From the IMG/VR virus record IMGVR_UViG_3300025108_000219, positions 1 through 32,726 of that record: 32,726 nt of DNA. One strand, given 5' to 3'. Every line of letters starts with the position of its first letter. Within the stretch, counting starts at the first letter, position 1. The notes beneath the pieces are model-generated. The model was not told the origin of the DNA. It saw nothing but the letters and a program-made list of their open reading frames with translations, and did not search any database. Made by a program: the position numbers and the translations under genes. The DNA comes from a virus. Below, piece by piece: positions 1,608 to 19,245 of the stretch.

Positions 1608-3254
1608 TTAGTATCCTGCGCCCACTCGTGTAGTCATCATGCTCCTAGACAGAACGTGATCTGGGCCATCTCCTCCGTTCGCCATTCGCAAATAACGAAT
1701 GATGTCGAAGAAATCCTTTAGTGGTTCATCAGATTTACCTGATGCGTTGTAGTTTATTAAAGAGTCTATTAGGTTTCCGCAATCTTGGTGGACGTAGCAC
1801 CTTGGGCGATTAGCGGAATCAATAGGAACATTCGGGTTATAACTGAACCATTCGTCTATTGCACTAATCCCCATTTCTTCCATTCTTCCGTCTGATGGAA
1901 TAAAGTTCATACCGCAGTCGTCGAACTCGGTGAACAGATCATCGTTGTCAGAGTTTTCCTTAGCGAAGTACCGACTATCACCTATACGCTCGAATACCTT
2001 TATGCCGATGTCCTCTTCTATTTCTTCGAACAAATCTACGTACCCTTGTACGTTGTACCCTATCTTCTTAGATGCTGGGCCGTATCTCCACTTAGGATCT
2101 CCGAACAACGCCCACTCTCCGTAGTAATCCCTATCGGGCCATTCCTTACGGATGTACACATCACCCATATCGTTTACTCCTGCCCATAGTGCTACGTAGT
2201 TCCTAGCTCCTGCTGGGTCAACTACCTGGTAACAGGTGAACTGTTCCTTATTGGAAATGTCTGGGAATGTCATCCCGTACTTGTTCTCCTCCTCGTTCAG
2301 CACGTTTACCTCAGTGTTAAACAAAGGCAGAAGGGATGTCATGCTTCTAACTGGGATGCCGTAAGCACGTACAAGTATCTCGTCCTCTGGTCTTCCCCTG
2401 AGGTCTTTAGCAATACGCTCGTACCCACCGAACGGGTTTTCGTCTGAGTGCAGGTACACCACTGAGGCATCCCTAGATGGGCTGTACTGCTTGATAGGGA
2501 CTTGTTTGTCTAATAGCTCCCCATTTCTAGTCTGAAGGGTTTCTACGTCCTTTAGGTACTCTGCCACAAAGGGAGTGTAACCATCAATAGGAGTAAAGCC
2601 TATACCCATCTTAGAGTCTCTAGTAGCTAATCGAAACCTAAGGGTATTTACTAATGCAGCATCTCCCAGGTACTCATCTAACCAGGCCCCTATGTTAAGA
2701 CCCACTGGATCAGGAAATCCGAACTCGAAGCCCTCAAGGATTGTTTGGTTGTTACTGAACTGGGTGTACGTCTTGAAGTCTACTCTAGTACGGGTATCTG
2801 GAAAGATGAAGCTCTTAGCCGTGAACCCGTTCTGCATACTGTAATTGATGTACCCTTCGATGCTCTTGGTCTTCTTCTTGAATTCCTTAGGCATCATTTC
2901 CCAGATAGCTGCTTGCTGTACCTTAATGGAAGTGTCTTCGTTCTGGGAGAAGCATACTACATGACCGTCTGTGCTTTCCGTTACGGCCTCCATTATAATC
3001 TTAGCAAATCCAGTAGTCTTGCCTGATCTATTGCCACCAAGGGCAAGGCATTCGTTGTACTCTTGCAGTCCTTCCTTTATGCGTTCCCAGCCAGGAAGAT
3101 TAAACCCATGACGAATAGGGTCTTCTATAGATGCCTTTATCCTGCTCTCGTGAGCCTTGTGTAGCTCCTTAAGAAGATTAAGGTCGTTCTCGTACAGCCA
3201 GACAACTTCTTCGTCTGTAGGAGGGAACAGTAAAGGATGCTCAGTAAAGTTAAT
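1608..3254 (-). CDS. terL: terminase large subunit (packaging ATPase and nuclease)
   Basis: This is the motor that pumps DNA through the portal and cuts concatemers. With the start proposed here it is 548 aa. Walker A GGNRSGKT is at about residues 73-80, Walker B-like IGAWLDE ends near residue 194, and the coupling motif is GFTPIDG. The RNase H-like nuclease starts near DPAGARN (about residue 346) and includes FDDCG and the late acidic pair in KDFFDII. The first ATG in frame (2993) lies after Walker A, and no ATG, GTG or TTG occurs upstream in the open frame. The best start is ATT at 3254-3252, five bases after GGAG and overlapping the TAA of the preceding gene. The ATT start is an inference; the coding frame itself is clear. 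Confidence 0.9.
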   Translation of the reverse strand: MNFTEHPLLFPPTDEEVVWLYENDLNLLKELHKAHESRIKASIEDPIRHGFNLPGWERIKEGLQEYNECLALGGNRSGKTTGFAKIIMEAVTESTDGHVVCFSQNEDTSIKVQQAAIWEMMPKEFKKKTKSIEGYINYSMQNGFTAKSFIFPDTRTRVDFKTYTQFSNNQTILEGFEFGFPDPVGLNIGAWLDEYLGDAALVNTLRFRLATRDSKMGIGFTPIDGYTPFVAEYLKDVETLQTRNGELLDKQVPIKQYSPSRDASVVYLHSDENPFGGYERIAKDLRGRPEDEILVRAYGIPVRSMTSLLPLFNTEVNVLNEEENKYGMTFPDISNKEQFTCYQVVDPAGARNYVALWAGVNDMGDVYIRKEWPDRDYYGEWALFGDPKWRYGPASKKIGYNVQGYVDLFEEIEEDIGIKVFERIGDSRYFAKENSDNDDLFTEFDDCGMNFIPSDGRMEEMGISAIDEWFSYNPNVPIDSANRPRCYVHQDCGNLIDSLINYNASGKSDEPLKDFFDIIRYLRMANGGDGPDHVLSRSMMTTRVGAGY

Positions 3255-3468
3255 TCTCGCTCCAATCTATTTGCTCTAACTCTTGTTGGGACATCTTGGC
3301 AACTAATGCCAGTAGCACAGCAAGGTTCTCTTGAGAGTGTTCTTCGTCAATCTTGTTGAACACATCGTACTCAAAGCCATGATCGGTTACGGTAGCAACT
3401 AGAACAGTTTCCCAACCAGGGGATATTGTGTCTAAGGACTTCTGCACTAACTGAGTATTTTTATTCAT
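3250..3468 (-). CDS. hypothetical 72-aa protein upstream of terL
   Basis: A small acidic protein (MNKNTQLVQKSLDTI at its start, LEQIDWSEN at its end) of unknown function. Its stop codon overlaps the proposed ATT start of the large terminase subunit, and its last codons supply the GGAG ribosome-binding site for that gene, so the two look translationally coupled. It begins four bases downstream of the preceding small gene, behind a weak AAGGT. Confidence 0.6.
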   Translation of the reverse strand: MNKNTQLVQKSLDTISPGWETVLVATVTDHGFEYDVFNKIDEEHSQENLAVLLALVAKMSQQELEQIDWSEN

Positions 3469-3471
3469 ACC

Positions 3472-3729
3472 TTAAGAAATTATACGTCTTATATCGTGAC
3501 GGATAGGAGCGCTTTTAAATGGTTTTGTTTCAATGGTGGAGGAAGTGGGATTCGCACCCACGTCTTCAGAAGTATCCTCCTGAATCGAATCTGAATTACC
3601 CCCAATAAAAGCACTTTCGTACTTCTTGATGTCGCTGTAAAAAGGCTCCTTTGGCTTAAATACGTTGTTGTACCCGCTGTGGTACGCATCCCAATTAGAC
3701 ACCCTGTTCCTGTCTCCTTTACCGTTCAT
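3472..3729 (-). CDS. small phage protein of the MNGKGD type, with a tRNA-like element in its 3' half
   Basis: The N-terminus MNGKGDRNRVSNWDAYHSGY matches a small protein type often seen in tailed phages, which starts with M-G/N-GKGD and has paired aromatic residues. It is usually only about 40-50 aa long. Here the frame continues to 85 aa because it reads straight through the tmRNA-like sequence at 3534-3603, which becomes the low-complexity stretch GGNSDSIQEDTSEDVGANPT. The start overlaps the small terminase gene by 11 bases. The first 40 residues look conserved; the tail may simply be RNA-gene sequence translated in passing. Function unknown. Confidence 0.6.
   Translation of the reverse strand: MNGKGDRNRVSNWDAYHSGYNNVFKPKEPFYSDIKKYESAFIGGNSDSIQEDTSEDVGANPTSSTIETKPFKSAPIRHDIRRIIS
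3534..3603 (-). ncRNA. tmRNA-like tRNA domain without a messenger domain (mini-tmRNA candidate)
   Basis: On the minus strand these 70 bases fold in the order of a tmRNA tRNA-like domain. The acceptor 5' strand GGGGGTA pairs with TTCCTCC (G3:U70 wobble, one U:U mismatch at pair 6), followed by discriminator A and encoded CCA. A stemless D-loop ATTCAGATTCGA resembles the tmRNA D-loop (E. coli ATTCTGGATTCGAC). An 8-bp stem TTCAGGAG/CTTCTGAA closed by GATA stands where helix 2 would be, then GAC and a T-arm GTGGG-TGCGAAT-CCCAC. G3:U70 plus A73 is the classical alanine identity set. The T-loop has G where U55 is expected, and the D-loop has AG rather than GG. There is no room for an anticodon arm or a tag reading frame. 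Function is unknown, and an integration-site remnant of ssrA is the main alternative. Confidence 0.6.
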
Positions 3730-4291
3730 CTTCTAAATCTATTACCTGGGCTTCCTTCATCTTGCTTTTAGCCTTTTCCATAAGCTCCCTGTAGTCCTCG
3801 TCAGTGTAAACCTTTTCCTCCCTGTTTATACTTGTAGCCTCACCCCTAGCTAGTAAAGCCTCTCTAGCAGAGTTAGCCTTAGCTATGCTGATGTCCTTGA
3901 TATCCTTGAATGTAGGCTTAAGCTCACCTGACTCCATACTAGAGCGTACCTCCTGTACCATGTCCTCCTCTAAAGAACTAATGTTCAGGTAAGAATAAGA
4001 AGCTAACTGACCACCGAGGTCTTTCCACTTCCCTAGGTGGTCTGCGTAAGTACTAAGTACACGTACAATAGTATCCCGCTTGAATCCGTACTTACGTACT
4101 AATTGAGTCTGAGTCTTACCACTAGAACTTAAGAACAGTATCTTAGCAGCCTTCTCAGGATTGTACTTCTCTAAGGACTTCACACCATCAAGCTCAGAAC
4201 TCTTAGCGAATTCACGCACCTTTAAATCAATGTCAGAGATTAACTCCCTCTTGATTAAATCCTTAGTACTATCTGTGTCTGAATCTTGCAA
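3719..4291 (-). CDS. terminase small subunit-like protein
   Basis: A 190-aa protein with a helix-turn-helix-like segment at about residues 57-82 (SGKTQTQLVRKYGFKRDTI), a long central helical region and an acidic C-terminus. Small terminase subunits bind the packaging site through an N-terminal HTH and oligomerise through helices, then hand DNA to the large subunit. Position as first gene of the late leftward arm, three genes before terL, fits. The only early start is TTG at 4291, with no ribosome-binding site in front. If the promoter at 4298-4326 is used, the mRNA would be almost leaderless. Family assignment is by architecture and context. Confidence 0.65.
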   Translation of the reverse strand: MQDSDTDSTKDLIKRELISDIDLKVREFAKSSELDGVKSLEKYNPEKAAKILFLSSSGKTQTQLVRKYGFKRDTIVRVLSTYADHLGKWKDLGGQLASYSYLNISSLEEDMVQEVRSSMESGELKPTFKDIKDISIAKANSAREALLARGEATSINREEKVYTDEDYRELMEKAKSKMKEAQVIDLEDER

Positions 4292-15640: not shown

Positions 15641-15678
15641 AAGGGCAGTAGGTGTAAAAGCCTGCTGCCCTTTTTTTA
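15641..15678 (+). terminator. intrinsic terminator of the rightward arm
   Basis: A 12-bp stem (15641-15652 with 15661-15672, one G:U pair) with an 8-base loop is followed by a run of seven T (15671-15677). It works only for plus-strand transcripts, since the minus strand has no T-run after the hairpin. The T-run overlaps the end of the convergent minus-strand gene, so the two arms meet here. Confidence 0.85.
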
Positions 15679-18600
15679 ATCTTCTTCGGACTGCTTCATT
15701 GCCCAACTCAAATTCTTACCTATTATTGGTATAAATTGAGTTGTTTTAGATTCTTCAGTTCCTGGGAAATTGAATCCAGCAATGTCTTTACTAGCAGCAT
15801 CTACCAAAGAAACAGCAGGAGGAATCAACATACCAACAGTAGCAGAACCAACGCCCTCCCTTTCTGCAACCATGCCAGTGTATGAGTTCAAGCCAAAAAC
15901 CCTCCAAAGATTTTCAGTTGTGAGGTCTGAAAGATTAGGAAGAGATCCTTCCTTCAGAAAAGCATGAATAAATTCAACAGGAGCATTAGCAATCATAAGA
16001 GATATTAGCATTTGAAAAAGGTTCTGTAACCCCTCCTGAACTTCATCTTCATTTCCAGAAAAAATCTTTTTAAATACATTTCTTCTAGCGTAGTCTAACT
16101 GCTTCATTGTGTAGCTCTTTAAGGCAAATGCCATCCTAATGTTTGGCTTAGTCAGATAAGTGTAAGACATATCTAATTTACTGAGCGGAGCTATTTCTGA
16201 AAGCTTGTAAAATAAAAATTCAGAAACCAGATCAGTCTTACGCCCTGCTCGTATGTCGTTTACAACCTTTTGAGCATTTTCTGGCCCCATAAGATCCGAA
16301 ATTTCATCAAAAACTTTTGCAGATCTTTCGTTAGCAGACTTTCCTAGTTCGCTCTTGACTCTTACGTAAGTGCTGTTGATGAATTTTTCTTTCATCTTTT
16401 CGTCAAGTTTACGAAATCCAGTCAATGTAAAAACAGTATCAATGGCCTTTTGAAGCTTATCGGGAATGCTACCATCGGACGTAAACTCAAACCCGACGGA
16501 CTGACCAGCTAAATTAAGATCTTCTAAAGTAAAAGAAATATCTTTATCCTGCTGGAAAGCAGCTTGTTTATTTTCAAACAAGTTGTAAGCAAAGTCACCA
16601 AGCTGGGTAACTGTACTCATGGGATTGCTCATAAATGCTAAGGTAGTAAAGCTTTTAACACCCCTAGAAAAGTTAGCAAAATCTTTTCTTCCATAAGCAG
16701 CAGAAGATTCAGAAACAAAATTAGCGTTTGATTTGAAAGCCCCCCTTAAAAGTCTAACAATCTCATCGTAACCCCTTTGGTCTAATCTTCCTTCAAGAAG
16801 TTCGTCTCTAAGAACCTTTACCATTCTTCCGCTTCCTAAAGACTTAGATAAGTGGTCAGGAACCCCTCCCTTTTTCTTGAATTTTCTCTCAGCTTTCCCT
16901 ACGGCACTTACAACTTCTTTGCTTTTGCTTAGTATTTCTCTTGCTGACTTCTTTCCTTCTTCAAGGTCTAGTTGTCTGCGAAGATAGGTACGTAAACTTT
17001 GATCCTTTCTGGAGTCTTTGAACTTATTATAGGCGTACAAAGCTTTATCTACATTAGACTCAAACTTTAGCGGTATGCCCTTGACCTCAAAGGTAGACCC
17101 CAATACATAAGGAAGTTCATCGGAAGAAACTTTATCTCTTGTTCTGGTGGTGGCATCTCCTTGATCGACTGGAGTCGGCCCCATGCCCTTAGGAGATTTC
17201 TCATCGTTAATGCTTTGAACTACAATCCTGTCCTGTACTTCTTCAGCTTGAGTTTCTCTCTGCTCAATGTCTTTAAATTCAGACCTATCTACGGAATTAA
17301 AATCTCTAAGAAGATTAGAATCCACAATAGACTTAACCATTCTGTTTACGTAATAAACAGAAGCATTTTGAGGAGTATGGTAAAACTTTACGGCATCATC
17401 AGAAACATTATCAATTACCCTTTTCTTGAGTGGGTTTGTTCCAATGCCCTTATGCTTTGGATTTCCGCTATTTTTAAGATCTTCAATTATTATCCTTTCA
17501 AAGAATTCACCAACCTTATCAATGCTATAATCTTCATCAGACTCTGCCATTTTTTTCAGAGCCTTTTCAACTATATCATCATTTCCTTGAAGACCTAAAT
17601 GCTTTCTGAACCCATCGTAGTCCTTCATGTTCCTGGGCAAAAAATCTTCTATCTCTCCAACTAATACGCCAGAAGTCAATGCCTCTGATCGTAAGTCTTC
17701 AAGGGCTTTTAAGTATTCATCAAATTCTTTTTCAATCTCGTATTTTTCGTGCAAAGGTTTTAACAAGTTGCGATTATTAGTCTTGTGAAAAGCATTGTAA
17801 ATTAACCCATAATCTTCTGGATTACTTTTTTCTATATCATTTATTTTTGAAAGATAAGGAACAATCTTTTTTAAATAATCTGCTTGCTTGTTTTGGTTTT
17901 CAGACTTGTAGCTATTTAATGCTATAAAAGCATTTTTGTTTATTGATCTAATCCTAGAAGTTATTGGCGTAATAATATCCTCAACAACTGGAGTTGATTT
18001 CTTGAAAAAAGAACTATCTTTTATAGAATTAATAAGACCCTTAGTAACTGGAACTACTTTTTTAGAAATACTTTCAGTAATTTTGCTAACGTCTATTCCA
18101 TTTTTCATTAGCCCATCAAGGATCTTTGCCGTAATGGGAGCATTCTTTACCATATCCTTAGCCTTTAAAGTTCCTTTAGCTAAAGATTTACTTACACCAG
18201 ATACGGCTTTTGTCGCTTTGGTAATAGCCTTAAGTGGAACAGCAGCAGATTCTCTGGCTATTCTAGGTGAAGCACCAGCAGCACCAAAAGCACCACCACC
18301 AATAGATCCAAGAGCAAACGCCCTGCCAGTTCCTTCTAAAGTTTCTCTTTCAGGATCGTACCCAAATAAACTGTTAGCAAGAATATTTAAACCAGCTTCA
18401 TCAGCAGCTTCAGTAAAACCCTCGCCAAGTGCGGCCTTGCCTACATCCTTAGTAATTTCCTTAAAGGAATCCTTAGTAAGCTTTCCTTCTTGAGCTAATT
18501 TAAAAAGTTTTTTATTTAGTTCCCTATTCTTAAGAAATACTTTTTGTATTCCCTTCATACCAATTTTTTCAAGGGCATAAGTCTTTATGCCATTAATAGC

Positions 18601-19245
18601 CCCAACAGCTTCAGCAGTATCTCGCTCTTCAGGTGTAGCTGTAGATGGAGTTTTGTCTATGCTTCTGTAGTAATCATCTTTACCAGTCGTATAACCCAAC
18701 GGTATAGTACTACCAGCAAAAACAGCACCTGCACCAACTGGGCCAGCAGCTAAACCTCCAAGACCTGCTGCTGCAAGCTGAGTTCCTATTTGACCAATAG
18801 TGTCTACAACTTGATAAGCGAAATCTTCTTGTACACGTTGAGGAGTAGGAGCAGTTATCTCTTCTCTGGCTTCTCTTCTGGCTTGATTCAAAGAGTCTGA
18901 TATTTTATTTAAATCAGCCTGTCTTTCAAGTTCAGCAATCTTAGCTGCTTCTCTGTACTCAGGTTCAAGTTCGGCAATGACCTGTCTGGCTTGTGGTGTG
19001 GTATAGACTAATGGAGGCCCTTCAGATCCTCTACCTAAAGCAGAAAAATCTACTAAAGCCTCTCCCATGGAATACTTCATGTCACTGACATTAGCACGTT
19101 GACTGCGAAGAGTATCCCCAGGAGTCATGGAGATATCCTCAAAGAGCTGGTAACTTAACTCTTCTAATTGGTCTTGAGTAAGTTCTTTTTCAGAATATAC
19201 CCTTTCAGTTTGACCATCCCTAGATTTGAATACGTAGTCTGGCAT
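15676..19245 (-). CDS. very large internal virion (ejection) protein
   Basis: A 1189-aa protein at the end of the structural arm, where podoviruses place the internal core proteins that are ejected into the cell to form a DNA channel. It has a long charged N-terminus, a Gly/Ala-rich hydrophobic stretch at about residues 148-186 and a second near 318-335, both able to insert into membrane, then long helical basic regions. A late hydrophobic segment (LFQMLISLMIANAPVEFI) is also present. No lysozyme or peptidase motif is visible. The start overlaps the previous stop as TAATG. Assignment is by size, composition and position. Confidence 0.65.
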   Translation of the reverse strand: MPDYVFKSRDGQTERVYSEKELTQDQLEELSYQLFEDISMTPGDTLRSQRANVSDMKYSMGEALVDFSALGRGSEGPPLVYTTPQARQVIAELEPEYREAAKIAELERQADLNKISDSLNQARREAREEITAPTPQRVQEDFAYQVVDTIGQIGTQLAAAGLGGLAAGPVGAGAVFAGSTIPLGYTTGKDDYYRSIDKTPSTATPEERDTAEAVGAINGIKTYALEKIGMKGIQKVFLKNRELNKKLFKLAQEGKLTKDSFKEITKDVGKAALGEGFTEAADEAGLNILANSLFGYDPERETLEGTGRAFALGSIGGGAFGAAGASPRIARESAAVPLKAITKATKAVSGVSKSLAKGTLKAKDMVKNAPITAKILDGLMKNGIDVSKITESISKKVVPVTKGLINSIKDSSFFKKSTPVVEDIITPITSRIRSINKNAFIALNSYKSENQNKQADYLKKIVPYLSKINDIEKSNPEDYGLIYNAFHKTNNRNLLKPLHEKYEIEKEFDEYLKALEDLRSEALTSGVLVGEIEDFLPRNMKDYDGFRKHLGLQGNDDIVEKALKKMAESDEDYSIDKVGEFFERIIIEDLKNSGNPKHKGIGTNPLKKRVIDNVSDDAVKFYHTPQNASVYYVNRMVKSIVDSNLLRDFNSVDRSEFKDIEQRETQAEEVQDRIVVQSINDEKSPKGMGPTPVDQGDATTRTRDKVSSDELPYVLGSTFEVKGIPLKFESNVDKALYAYNKFKDSRKDQSLRTYLRRQLDLEEGKKSAREILSKSKEVVSAVGKAERKFKKKGGVPDHLSKSLGSGRMVKVLRDELLEGRLDQRGYDEIVRLLRGAFKSNANFVSESSAAYGRKDFANFSRGVKSFTTLAFMSNPMSTVTQLGDFAYNLFENKQAAFQQDKDISFTLEDLNLAGQSVGFEFTSDGSIPDKLQKAIDTVFTLTGFRKLDEKMKEKFINSTYVRVKSELGKSANERSAKVFDEISDLMGPENAQKVVNDIRAGRKTDLVSEFLFYKLSEIAPLSKLDMSYTYLTKPNIRMAFALKSYTMKQLDYARRNVFKKIFSGNEDEVQEGLQNLFQMLISLMIANAPVEFIHAFLKEGSLPNLSDLTTENLWRVFGLNSYTGMVAEREGVGSATVGMLIPPAVSLVDAASKDIAGFNFPGTEESKTTQFIPIIGKNLSWAMKQSEED

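Follow-up and report, generated by a model that had tools for sequence, protein, structure and literature searches.

The virus record IMGVR_UViG_3300025108_000219, analysed here over its full 32,726 bases (the window), carries an 85-aa ORF that lies between the large-terminase gene and an ORF presumed to encode the small terminase and that bears a 70-nt element, and sequence comparison confirms this element as a genuine head-only tmRNA. The original prediction, made from the letters of the window, had taken it for the tRNA-like domain of tmRNA lacking a messenger domain and not for a tRNA; this reading is supported by homologues in related phages, among which the variable stem covaries while the remainder of the head is kept.

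Gene neighborhood and anatomy of the element

The window encodes an SU10-type major capsid protein, a large terminase and a Dda/PIF1-like helicase. The region of the element is organized as follows.

Positions 3534 to 3603, minus strand: mini-tmRNA, the complete tRNA-like domain of tmRNA, 70 nt, without messenger domain (full RF00023 model span with the middle deleted; 92.6 bits with R1, a model built from relatives; homologues)
Positions 3472 to 3729, minus strand: 85-aa ORF, MNGKGDRNRV...PIRHDIRRIIS, whose frame passes through the element (element-free alleles keep its N- and C-terminal parts too)
Positions 3719 to 4291, minus strand: presumed small terminase subunit (by position)
Positions 3250 to 3468, minus strand: 72-aa ORF with the nested gene on one side and the large terminase on the other (position as CDS0029 of phage C75C1, 81 aa)
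Positions 1608 to 3266, minus strand: large terminase subunit, open frame of 552 aa (PHROG phrog_2, E 7.3e-14)

The presumed small-terminase ORF has no family match and is 51% identical to the gene at the same position in phage C75C1, which is annotated as hypothetical. The longer large-terminase frame (1608-3266) has no ATG, GTG or TTG start listed, and a Walker-A-like motif lies in its extension upstream of the ATG at 2993 listed by the ORF finder. A promoter-like motif after the nested gene does not recur in the window at fewer than 6 mismatches. Elsewhere, positions 15676-19245 encode a 1189-aa protein with weak similarity to a PHROG 'virion RNA polymerase' (E 2.2e-9) and no Pfam match.

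From its 5' to its 3' end, the element comprises the following parts.

Positions 3597 to 3603, minus strand: acceptor stem 5' strand GGGGGUA, with G3 paired to U70 (sequence and RF00023 alignment)
Positions 3585 to 3596, minus strand: stemless 12-nt D-loop AUUCAGAUUCGA, with the equivalents of E. coli tmRNA A15, U17 and G19, which are SmpB contacts (numbering from NC_000913; contacts from passages of PMC8363625)
Positions 3565 to 3584, minus strand: helix 2, 8 bp, UUCAGGAG/CUUCUGAA, with a GAUA tetraloop at 3573-3576 (8/8 pairs changed on both sides among relatives)
Positions 3562 to 3564, minus strand: GAC between helix 2 and the T-stem, its A being the equivalent of the SmpB contact A334 of E. 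coli (A in 48/48 elements)
Positions 3545 to 3561, minus strand: T-arm with a 5-bp stem, loop UGCGAAU and G at tRNA position 55 (sequence, homologues)
Positions 3538 to 3544, minus strand: acceptor stem 3' strand UUCCUCC (pairs with GGGGGUA)
Positions 3534 to 3537, minus strand: discriminator A73 and encoded CCA (sequence)

Every feature named beforehand (the acceptor with G3:U70, A73, CCA, the stemless D-loop, the GATA helix, GAC and the T-stem) is thus present; what had gone unstated is that the element lies on the minus strand and that acceptor pair 6 is a U·U mismatch, the pairs reading in order G-C, G-C, G3·U70, G-C, G-C, U·U and A-U. In full tmRNA, helix 2 leads into the messenger domain. 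Here the tag reading frame and the pseudoknots are absent, a 20-nt hairpin alone stands between the D-loop and GAC, and 306 positions of RF00023 are skipped. As a tRNA the element fails, with 35 nt between the acceptor 5' strand and the T-arm and neither a D-stem nor an anticodon arm.

Single-sequence scores

Standard tools miss the element: ARAGORN detected no tRNA or tmRNA in the window, and Rfam ranks the window copy below threshold. In the Infernal check proposed with the original prediction, RF00023, the best model of the tRNA clan for this stretch, aligned both ends of the element at 27.6 or 36.1 bits (two scans) against a gathering score of 47. The tymovirus-type tRNA-like model RF00233 reached 14.3 bits, below its gathering score of 40. 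The Rfam score alone proves nothing and was rejected as evidence, because tRNA-Ala genes score within the same range: the RF00023 search responded in 14/14 control genomes, archaea included, with tRNA-sized loci in bacterial genomes of up to approximately 43 bits (maximum 42.9), and all eight high-scoring loci of this size given to ARAGORN were tRNA-Ala, which shares G3·U70. Folding energy was likewise discarded as proof, being unremarkable (z -1.57; 13/200 shuffles fold equally well). Across 17 loci scanned with RF00023, seven hold the element and three of these pass the gathering score (L012, 50.0 bits; L011, 47.6; L070, 47.4); further carriers score 64.4 (L156), 63.8 (L097), 49.8 (L112) and 64.5 bits (Streptomyces phage BRock).

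Conservation and covariation among relatives

The case for the element is carried by its relatives. We retrieved viral contigs by the large terminase alone, with no element pattern, and among the best 80 of at least 599 the element was found in 22 in addition to the window, using a model built from relatives that included some of these sequences. This model gave no further match at E<=1 in the 601 kb of terminase-selected contigs plus window, and at E<=10 it had no match (R1) in Venkman, C75C1 or the alleles of the gene that lack the element. All 22 terminase-selected contigs have GATTCGA and the GAC after it, and they also retain the equivalents of E. coli A15, U17, G19 and A334, mapped through E. 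coli ssrA. Pattern scans of viral contigs yielded at least 80 stretches with the main pattern and 16, 0 and 2 with others, the 0 being for a TGC T-arm with a different second T-stem letter; the conserved letters of contigs fetched in this way are partly imposed by the pattern, which is not so for the 22 selected by terminase. A pattern scan of genome contigs gave 31 stretches, nine of which passed the acceptor filter and then all failed the helix-2 filter.

Pooling all loci gave 93 candidates, 58 of them distinct once the duplicate window locus L001 was excluded. A filter blind to pair 3:70, requiring at least 6/7 paired acceptor positions and at least 5 net pairs in helix 2 (a minimum that is thereby imposed on the set), kept 48 of the 58, and the 10 removed look like tRNAs or chance matches. 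Several pattern matches, L087, L117, L134 and L150 being examples, have a tmRNA-like 3' end alone and no matching acceptor 5' strand.

Pair G3·U70 is present in 48/48 distinct elements, and the neighboring pairs 4-7 vary in compensation between G-C, C-G, A-U and U-A. The pattern in helix 2 is similarly clear: over 28 distinct 70-nt copies, each of its eight pairs shows compensatory changes on both sides, with 62 compensatory cells against a shuffle mean of 23 and a covariation score of 0.322 against 0.03-0.08 for slid versions of the helix. The count of eight doubly changed pairs was matched by 11/500 shuffles, which ignore relatedness. Unguided, RNAalifold returned the same three helices, the acceptor as 5/7 pairs, and the U·U mismatch at pair 6 recurs in 6/28 copies, the window included. 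The proposed search of related phage contigs for compensatory change has thus borne the prediction out, with 22/80 carriers and 8/8 helix-2 pairs. It also speaks against the outcome that would have made the element an attachment-site remnant matching ssrA in its 3' half alone, as the acceptor 5' strand, the D-loop and helix 2 are all kept.

Against named phages, blastn of the locus and three elements returned, Streptomyces phages aside, only short tRNA or tmRNA 3'-end matches or unrelated ones among the best 20 of 27, 40 of 718, 40 of 111 and 40 of 330 records; there was a match of 65% coverage in Synechococcus phage S-CAM3.

Nesting of the element in a small protein gene

Within this phage group the gene has a consistent layout, in which an N-terminus MxGKGDR is followed by the element, read as GGNxDSx...DVGAxPTSSTI, and by a C-terminus PI(R/K)H(D/G)xxRII. 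The 34 distinct in-gene copies are 70 nt (26), 73 nt (5) or 97 nt (3) long, and since these lengths differ by multiples of three, one frame is kept; the exception is L119, whose frame ends just past the element. We compared codon choice at conserved residues in 18 distinct element-bearing genes from the terminase-selected contigs and the window, a test with few columns. Inside the element 11/13 codon columns are invariant, with a mean commonest-codon share of 0.965, against 1/5 before it (0.69) and 0/4 after it (0.735). Synonymous sites are therefore frozen inside the element and free in the flanks, indicating that selection acts on the protein in the flanks and on the RNA in the element. Consistent with this, helix 2 encodes 20 kinds of peptide over the 34 distinct in-gene copies while its pairing is kept. 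The small gene is apparently translated, and the sequence argues for translation that proceeds through the element, because the C-terminal part, downstream in the same frame, is conserved in its residues while its codons vary freely. The locus offers a clear example of an RNA gene that sits in frame within a protein gene, so that the same nucleotides are under two opposed constraints.

Several copies of the gene carry additional modules. In L061 (1928-2099) the nested element has lost its CCA, and the small gene continues in frame past it into a gene for tRNA-Thr(TGT); L009 and L092 have an extra cysteine-containing module of approximately 60 codons in frame after the element, which in L092 ends in an apparent remnant of the 3' end of the tRNA-Thr of L061.

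Gain and loss

Seven terminase relatives (L017, L019, L020, L024, L025, L030 and L031) have the gene without the element, which is therefore dispensable. In the set of 82 loci, 21 do not hold the region and 31 hold it without the gene as defined by its motifs, several of the latter having a plain small ORF that begins MGKG. On a terminase tree of 61 loci, the element-bearing and empty genes together form one clade of 30 (support 100/99), within which the empty alleles need at least four changes. This distribution would fit one gain and about four losses, a history that recombination between the terminase and the element could mimic. A clear 5' scar is seen in the empty allele of L025 (16/19 letters; 0/1000 shuffles). 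L017, L019 and L024 match 13/19 letters at the same ORF offset, a value reached by 33-57/1000 shuffles, and no scar match was found in L020, L030 or L031.

Copies outside the gene

The nested gene is not the only location: L089, L094, L106, L113, L127, L139 and L143 carry elements of 69 or 70 nt elsewhere, the 69-nt form being that of L094, L106 and L143. By visual annotation most of them are upstream of HNH-like and terminase-like ORFs, contig L127 being too short to show this. The ORF that precedes the element extends into it and stops inside it (L089, L139), shortly after it (L113, L127) or later (L106, L143), so no conserved frame crosses these copies. L093 and L142 carry a variant whose acceptor stem differs and is paired throughout; in L093 it precedes putative scaffold and capsid ORFs.

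A different setting is that of the tRNA gene array. In an uncultured phage contig (L156, 806-887), a head-only tmRNA of 64.4 bits lies in an array of 20 tRNA genes, and four cultured Streptomyces phages carry head-only tmRNAs scored with RF00023 as follows.

BRock, L192 1191-1271: 64.5 bits
LuckySocke, L193 1201-1281: 57.1 bits
pSt2308, L194 1201-1281: 61.0 bits
Alone3, L202 1180-1259: 36.8 bits, below gathering

These four are approximately 80 nt long, lie among tRNA genes, are unannotated in their records and encode no CCA (0/4); an element in Streptomyces phage GiJojo was found by blastn only. The LuckySocke D-loop, GGUUUCGA, is as in the one actinobacterial tmRNA that we read. A position among phage tRNA genes, in the Streptomyces phages and in L156, is the place of an RNA gene, which supports reading the element as one.

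Other RNA elements were met in the phages compared. In Tunturiibacter phage Tunturi_4 (L203), a tmRNA in permuted form (418-1179, 79.2 bits) lies immediately downstream of one of the annotated genes, 'RF-1 domain peptide chain release factor', so that two parts of ribosome rescue adjoin. Caulobacter phage phiCbK (L195) has a permuted tmRNA match at 771-1089 (71.4 bits), unannotated in its record, and on the opposite strand at 1-262 a cut-off GOLLD RNA match below the gathering score. Gordonia phage GMA2 (L200) has an unannotated full tmRNA at 422-833 (94.6 bits) and, between phage tRNA genes, a Pistol ribozyme match at 1143-1199 (56.8 bits). In L042, a RAGATH-24 RNA match just above its gathering score lies at 2860-3060 on the strand opposite the terminase.

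The elbow signature and the likely host group

At the elbow, where the D-loop meets the T-loop, 41 of the 48 elements have A18/G55, as does the window, five have G18/U55 and two C18/U55. With bacterial class inferred from those centre genomes that are named (Roseibium for the Alphaproteobacteria, Pseudoalteromonas for the Gammaproteobacteria), A18/G55 occurs in 29/29 alphaproteobacterial tmRNAs read (30 loci fetched; 52/58 genomes with a match) and G18/U55 in 21/21 gammaproteobacterial tmRNAs read (23 loci fetched). The elbow bases had been predicted to have changed together. The paired change stands, but it looks inherited, A18/G55 being the normal alphaproteobacterial state and no invention of this phage. 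The T-loop of the phage type is UGCRA, while that of the 29 alphaproteobacterial tmRNAs read is GGCRGUA; by pattern, UGCRA-type loops were present in 5/289 genomes, all five loci being tmRNAs by Rfam, in 1/369 sampled gammaproteobacteria (chance-like) and in 0/296 Bacteroidota. As judged from these letters, the element mimics an alphaproteobacterial tmRNA head, and the signature A18/G55 together with the survey of UGCRA loops makes the host probably an alphaproteobacterium.

The alphaproteobacterial tmRNA genes read here are permuted, and they are described as two-piece in passages of PMC9004378. The phage element, by contrast, is contiguous and in natural order, an order that neither deletion of the messenger domain nor a simple fragment of such a gene would give.

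Relation to known tmRNA forms

The element is of a kind already known. Mycobacteriophage DS6A likewise encodes a tRNA-like domain of tmRNA without a messenger domain ('TLD only', 'no CDS'; Mao et al. 2009, as cited in excerpts of PMC4131195 and PMC11915505). The likeness to DS6A is one of description, and DS6A is a single phage, in contrast to a marine family with an alphaproteobacterial elbow, nesting in frame in a protein gene and an inferred host group whose tmRNA is permuted. The alphaproteobacterial tmRNA RF01849 shares G3·U70, A18/G55, the D-loop spacing UAG..UCGAC and GGAC before the T-arm, and differs in being permuted and two-piece, in having a messenger domain and in its T-loop. The design is that of an engineered construct, PDB 2CZJ, made for co-crystallization with SmpB, which takes 25 residues from the 5' end and 34 from the 3' end of T. 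thermophilus tmRNA and links them through a UUCG loop (as given in part of PMC3929946): helix 2 is closed by a tetraloop in the same way, and the L089 element even has a UUCG loop, but the phage element is natural, phage-borne and of other sequence. Mitochondrial tmRNAs (RF02544) and the approximately 65-bp plastid forms of Mallomonadaceae are also tRNA-like domains without a tag frame; they are organelle genes, and those of mitochondria are usually permuted (passages of PMC11915505). Marine phages such as Melnitz and Mosig also have a tmRNA of alphaproteobacterial type, but complete and two-piece (passages of PMC9004378), and ARAGORN, the tool of that survey, reports no mini form in the loci tested here.

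Among 97,179 tmRNAs, PMC11915505 counts nine as 'Standard, no CDS' and 72 as 'Permuted, no CDS', with DS6A and two plastid genes given as examples that lack a coding sequence. As far as our literature search shows, four things are new: a family in marine phages, nesting in frame together with repeated loss of the element, an alphaproteobacterial form that is not permuted, and the cases in Streptomyces phages. We found no report of such an RNA from phages of either group, marine or Streptomyces, in the literature searched, which lay outside preprints and most subscription journals and was in part represented by excerpts.

A proposed role and its rivals

The letters that are kept in the element include those by which tmRNA meets its partner. 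In cryo-EM structures, A15, U17 and A334 form the pocket for Trp122 of SmpB, and the substitution G19C abolishes trans-translation (both from passages of PMC8363625). We found no SmpB gene at E<=0.001 in 24/24 records (23 carriers, many of them fragments, and C75C1), so the partner would be that of the host. A head-only RNA similar to that of DS6A inhibits E. coli tmRNA, and the inhibition did not need charging, according to excerpts of PMC4131195 and PMC11915505. Of the roles suggested with the original prediction (alanylation, a decoy for AlaRS, SmpB or EF-Tu, a processing site), the decoy is the best supported, on the analogy of this precedent and this inhibition, and we consider it somewhat probable that a phage-encoded head-only tmRNA damps host trans-translation in this manner. 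We infer transcription, processing, charging, binding and inhibition, as well as the identity of the host, in the following scheme. A late packaging transcript of an alphaproteobacterial phage would fold here so as to reproduce the tRNA-like domain of the host tmRNA, and host tRNA-processing enzymes would release it, RNase P cutting at the 5' end with CCA already encoded at the other. Host AlaRS would charge the element with alanine through G3·U70, and the element would then bind host SmpB and EF-Tu as a real tmRNA does. With no messenger domain it could supply neither tag codons nor a stop codon, so that its occupancy of SmpB and of stalled ribosomes would be unproductive and trans-translation would be damped late in infection.

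As the reported inhibition did not depend on charging, conservation of G3·U70 and of CCA may speak for an active function over a blocking one. A charged head with SmpB could take the nascent chain onto alanine, after which the chain would drop off or be hydrolysed, possibly after several untemplated alanines, and the phage would rescue ribosomes while sparing its own proteins the degradation tag. Such an active mini-rescue is in our view unlikely, yet the invariance of G3·U70 despite charging-free inhibition is the best reason to keep it as a rival, 48/48 being in excess of what a mere trap for SmpB needs. It also has support in vitro, where SmpB and a fragment of the tRNA-like domain yield polyalanine without mRNA (Shimizu and Ueda 2006, in the portion of PMC3929946 that treats it), and mitochondrial tmRNAs without a tag frame are conserved together with SmpB (passages of PMC11915505). 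What the functional report on a head-only RNA of phage type describes, however, is inhibition (excerpts of PMC4131195 and PMC11915505).

The element might instead serve as a processing signal, with RNase P and tRNA 3' nucleases cutting the late mRNA between the terminase genes and the released RNA having no job. An acceptor-T minihelix with CCA is a minimal substrate of RNase P, the element does lie between the terminase genes in this phage group, and in L089, L094 and L093 it immediately precedes ORFs that resemble HNH, terminase or scaffold/capsid genes (by eye). A cut site, however, needs the acceptor and T-arm alone, whereas the D-loop, helix 2 and the SmpB-contact letters are also kept, and the same head recurs in the tRNA arrays of Streptomyces phages and L156, which leaves this reading distinctly improbable; a cut between the terminase genes may still occur and would be compatible with a decoy role. 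That the element is instead a decaying fragment of host ssrA, left by imprecise excision or integration, is very improbable. Phages do use ssrA as an attachment site (passages of PMC9004378), and several pattern matches, among them the four named above, have a tmRNA-like 3' end only; here the whole head is kept and compensated, the covariation largely refuting decay, a simple fragment of a permuted gene would not have this order, and no integrase was found among the window proteins scanned, a subset of the ORFs. Finally, the letters might be conserved for the peptide GGNxDSx..DVGAxPTSSTI and not for an RNA. The element is indeed in frame, and the in-gene lengths of 70, 73 and 97 nt respect that frame, but the freezing of synonymous sites is confined to the element and spares the N-terminal (1/5) and C-terminal (0/4) parts, the residues of helix 2 change freely while pairing stays, and the same element occurs outside the gene, also with 69 nt; we give protein constraint alone hardly any credence.

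A broader history can tentatively be proposed, one that is conceivable though we doubt it somewhat. Marine alphaproteobacterial phages would have rebuilt a one-piece head in natural order from the permuted, two-piece tmRNA of their hosts and stored it in frame within a gene that is translated, any one transcript then serving as mRNA or being cut to yield the RNA. The head would be a general device against rescue, or for alanine-only rescue, that arose more than once, each time with the elbow signature of its own host. Nearly all bacteria rescue ribosomes with tmRNA, and a conserved family in marine phages, together with cultured Streptomyces phages that carry an RNA of this kind, makes it directly testable whether phages attack this system.
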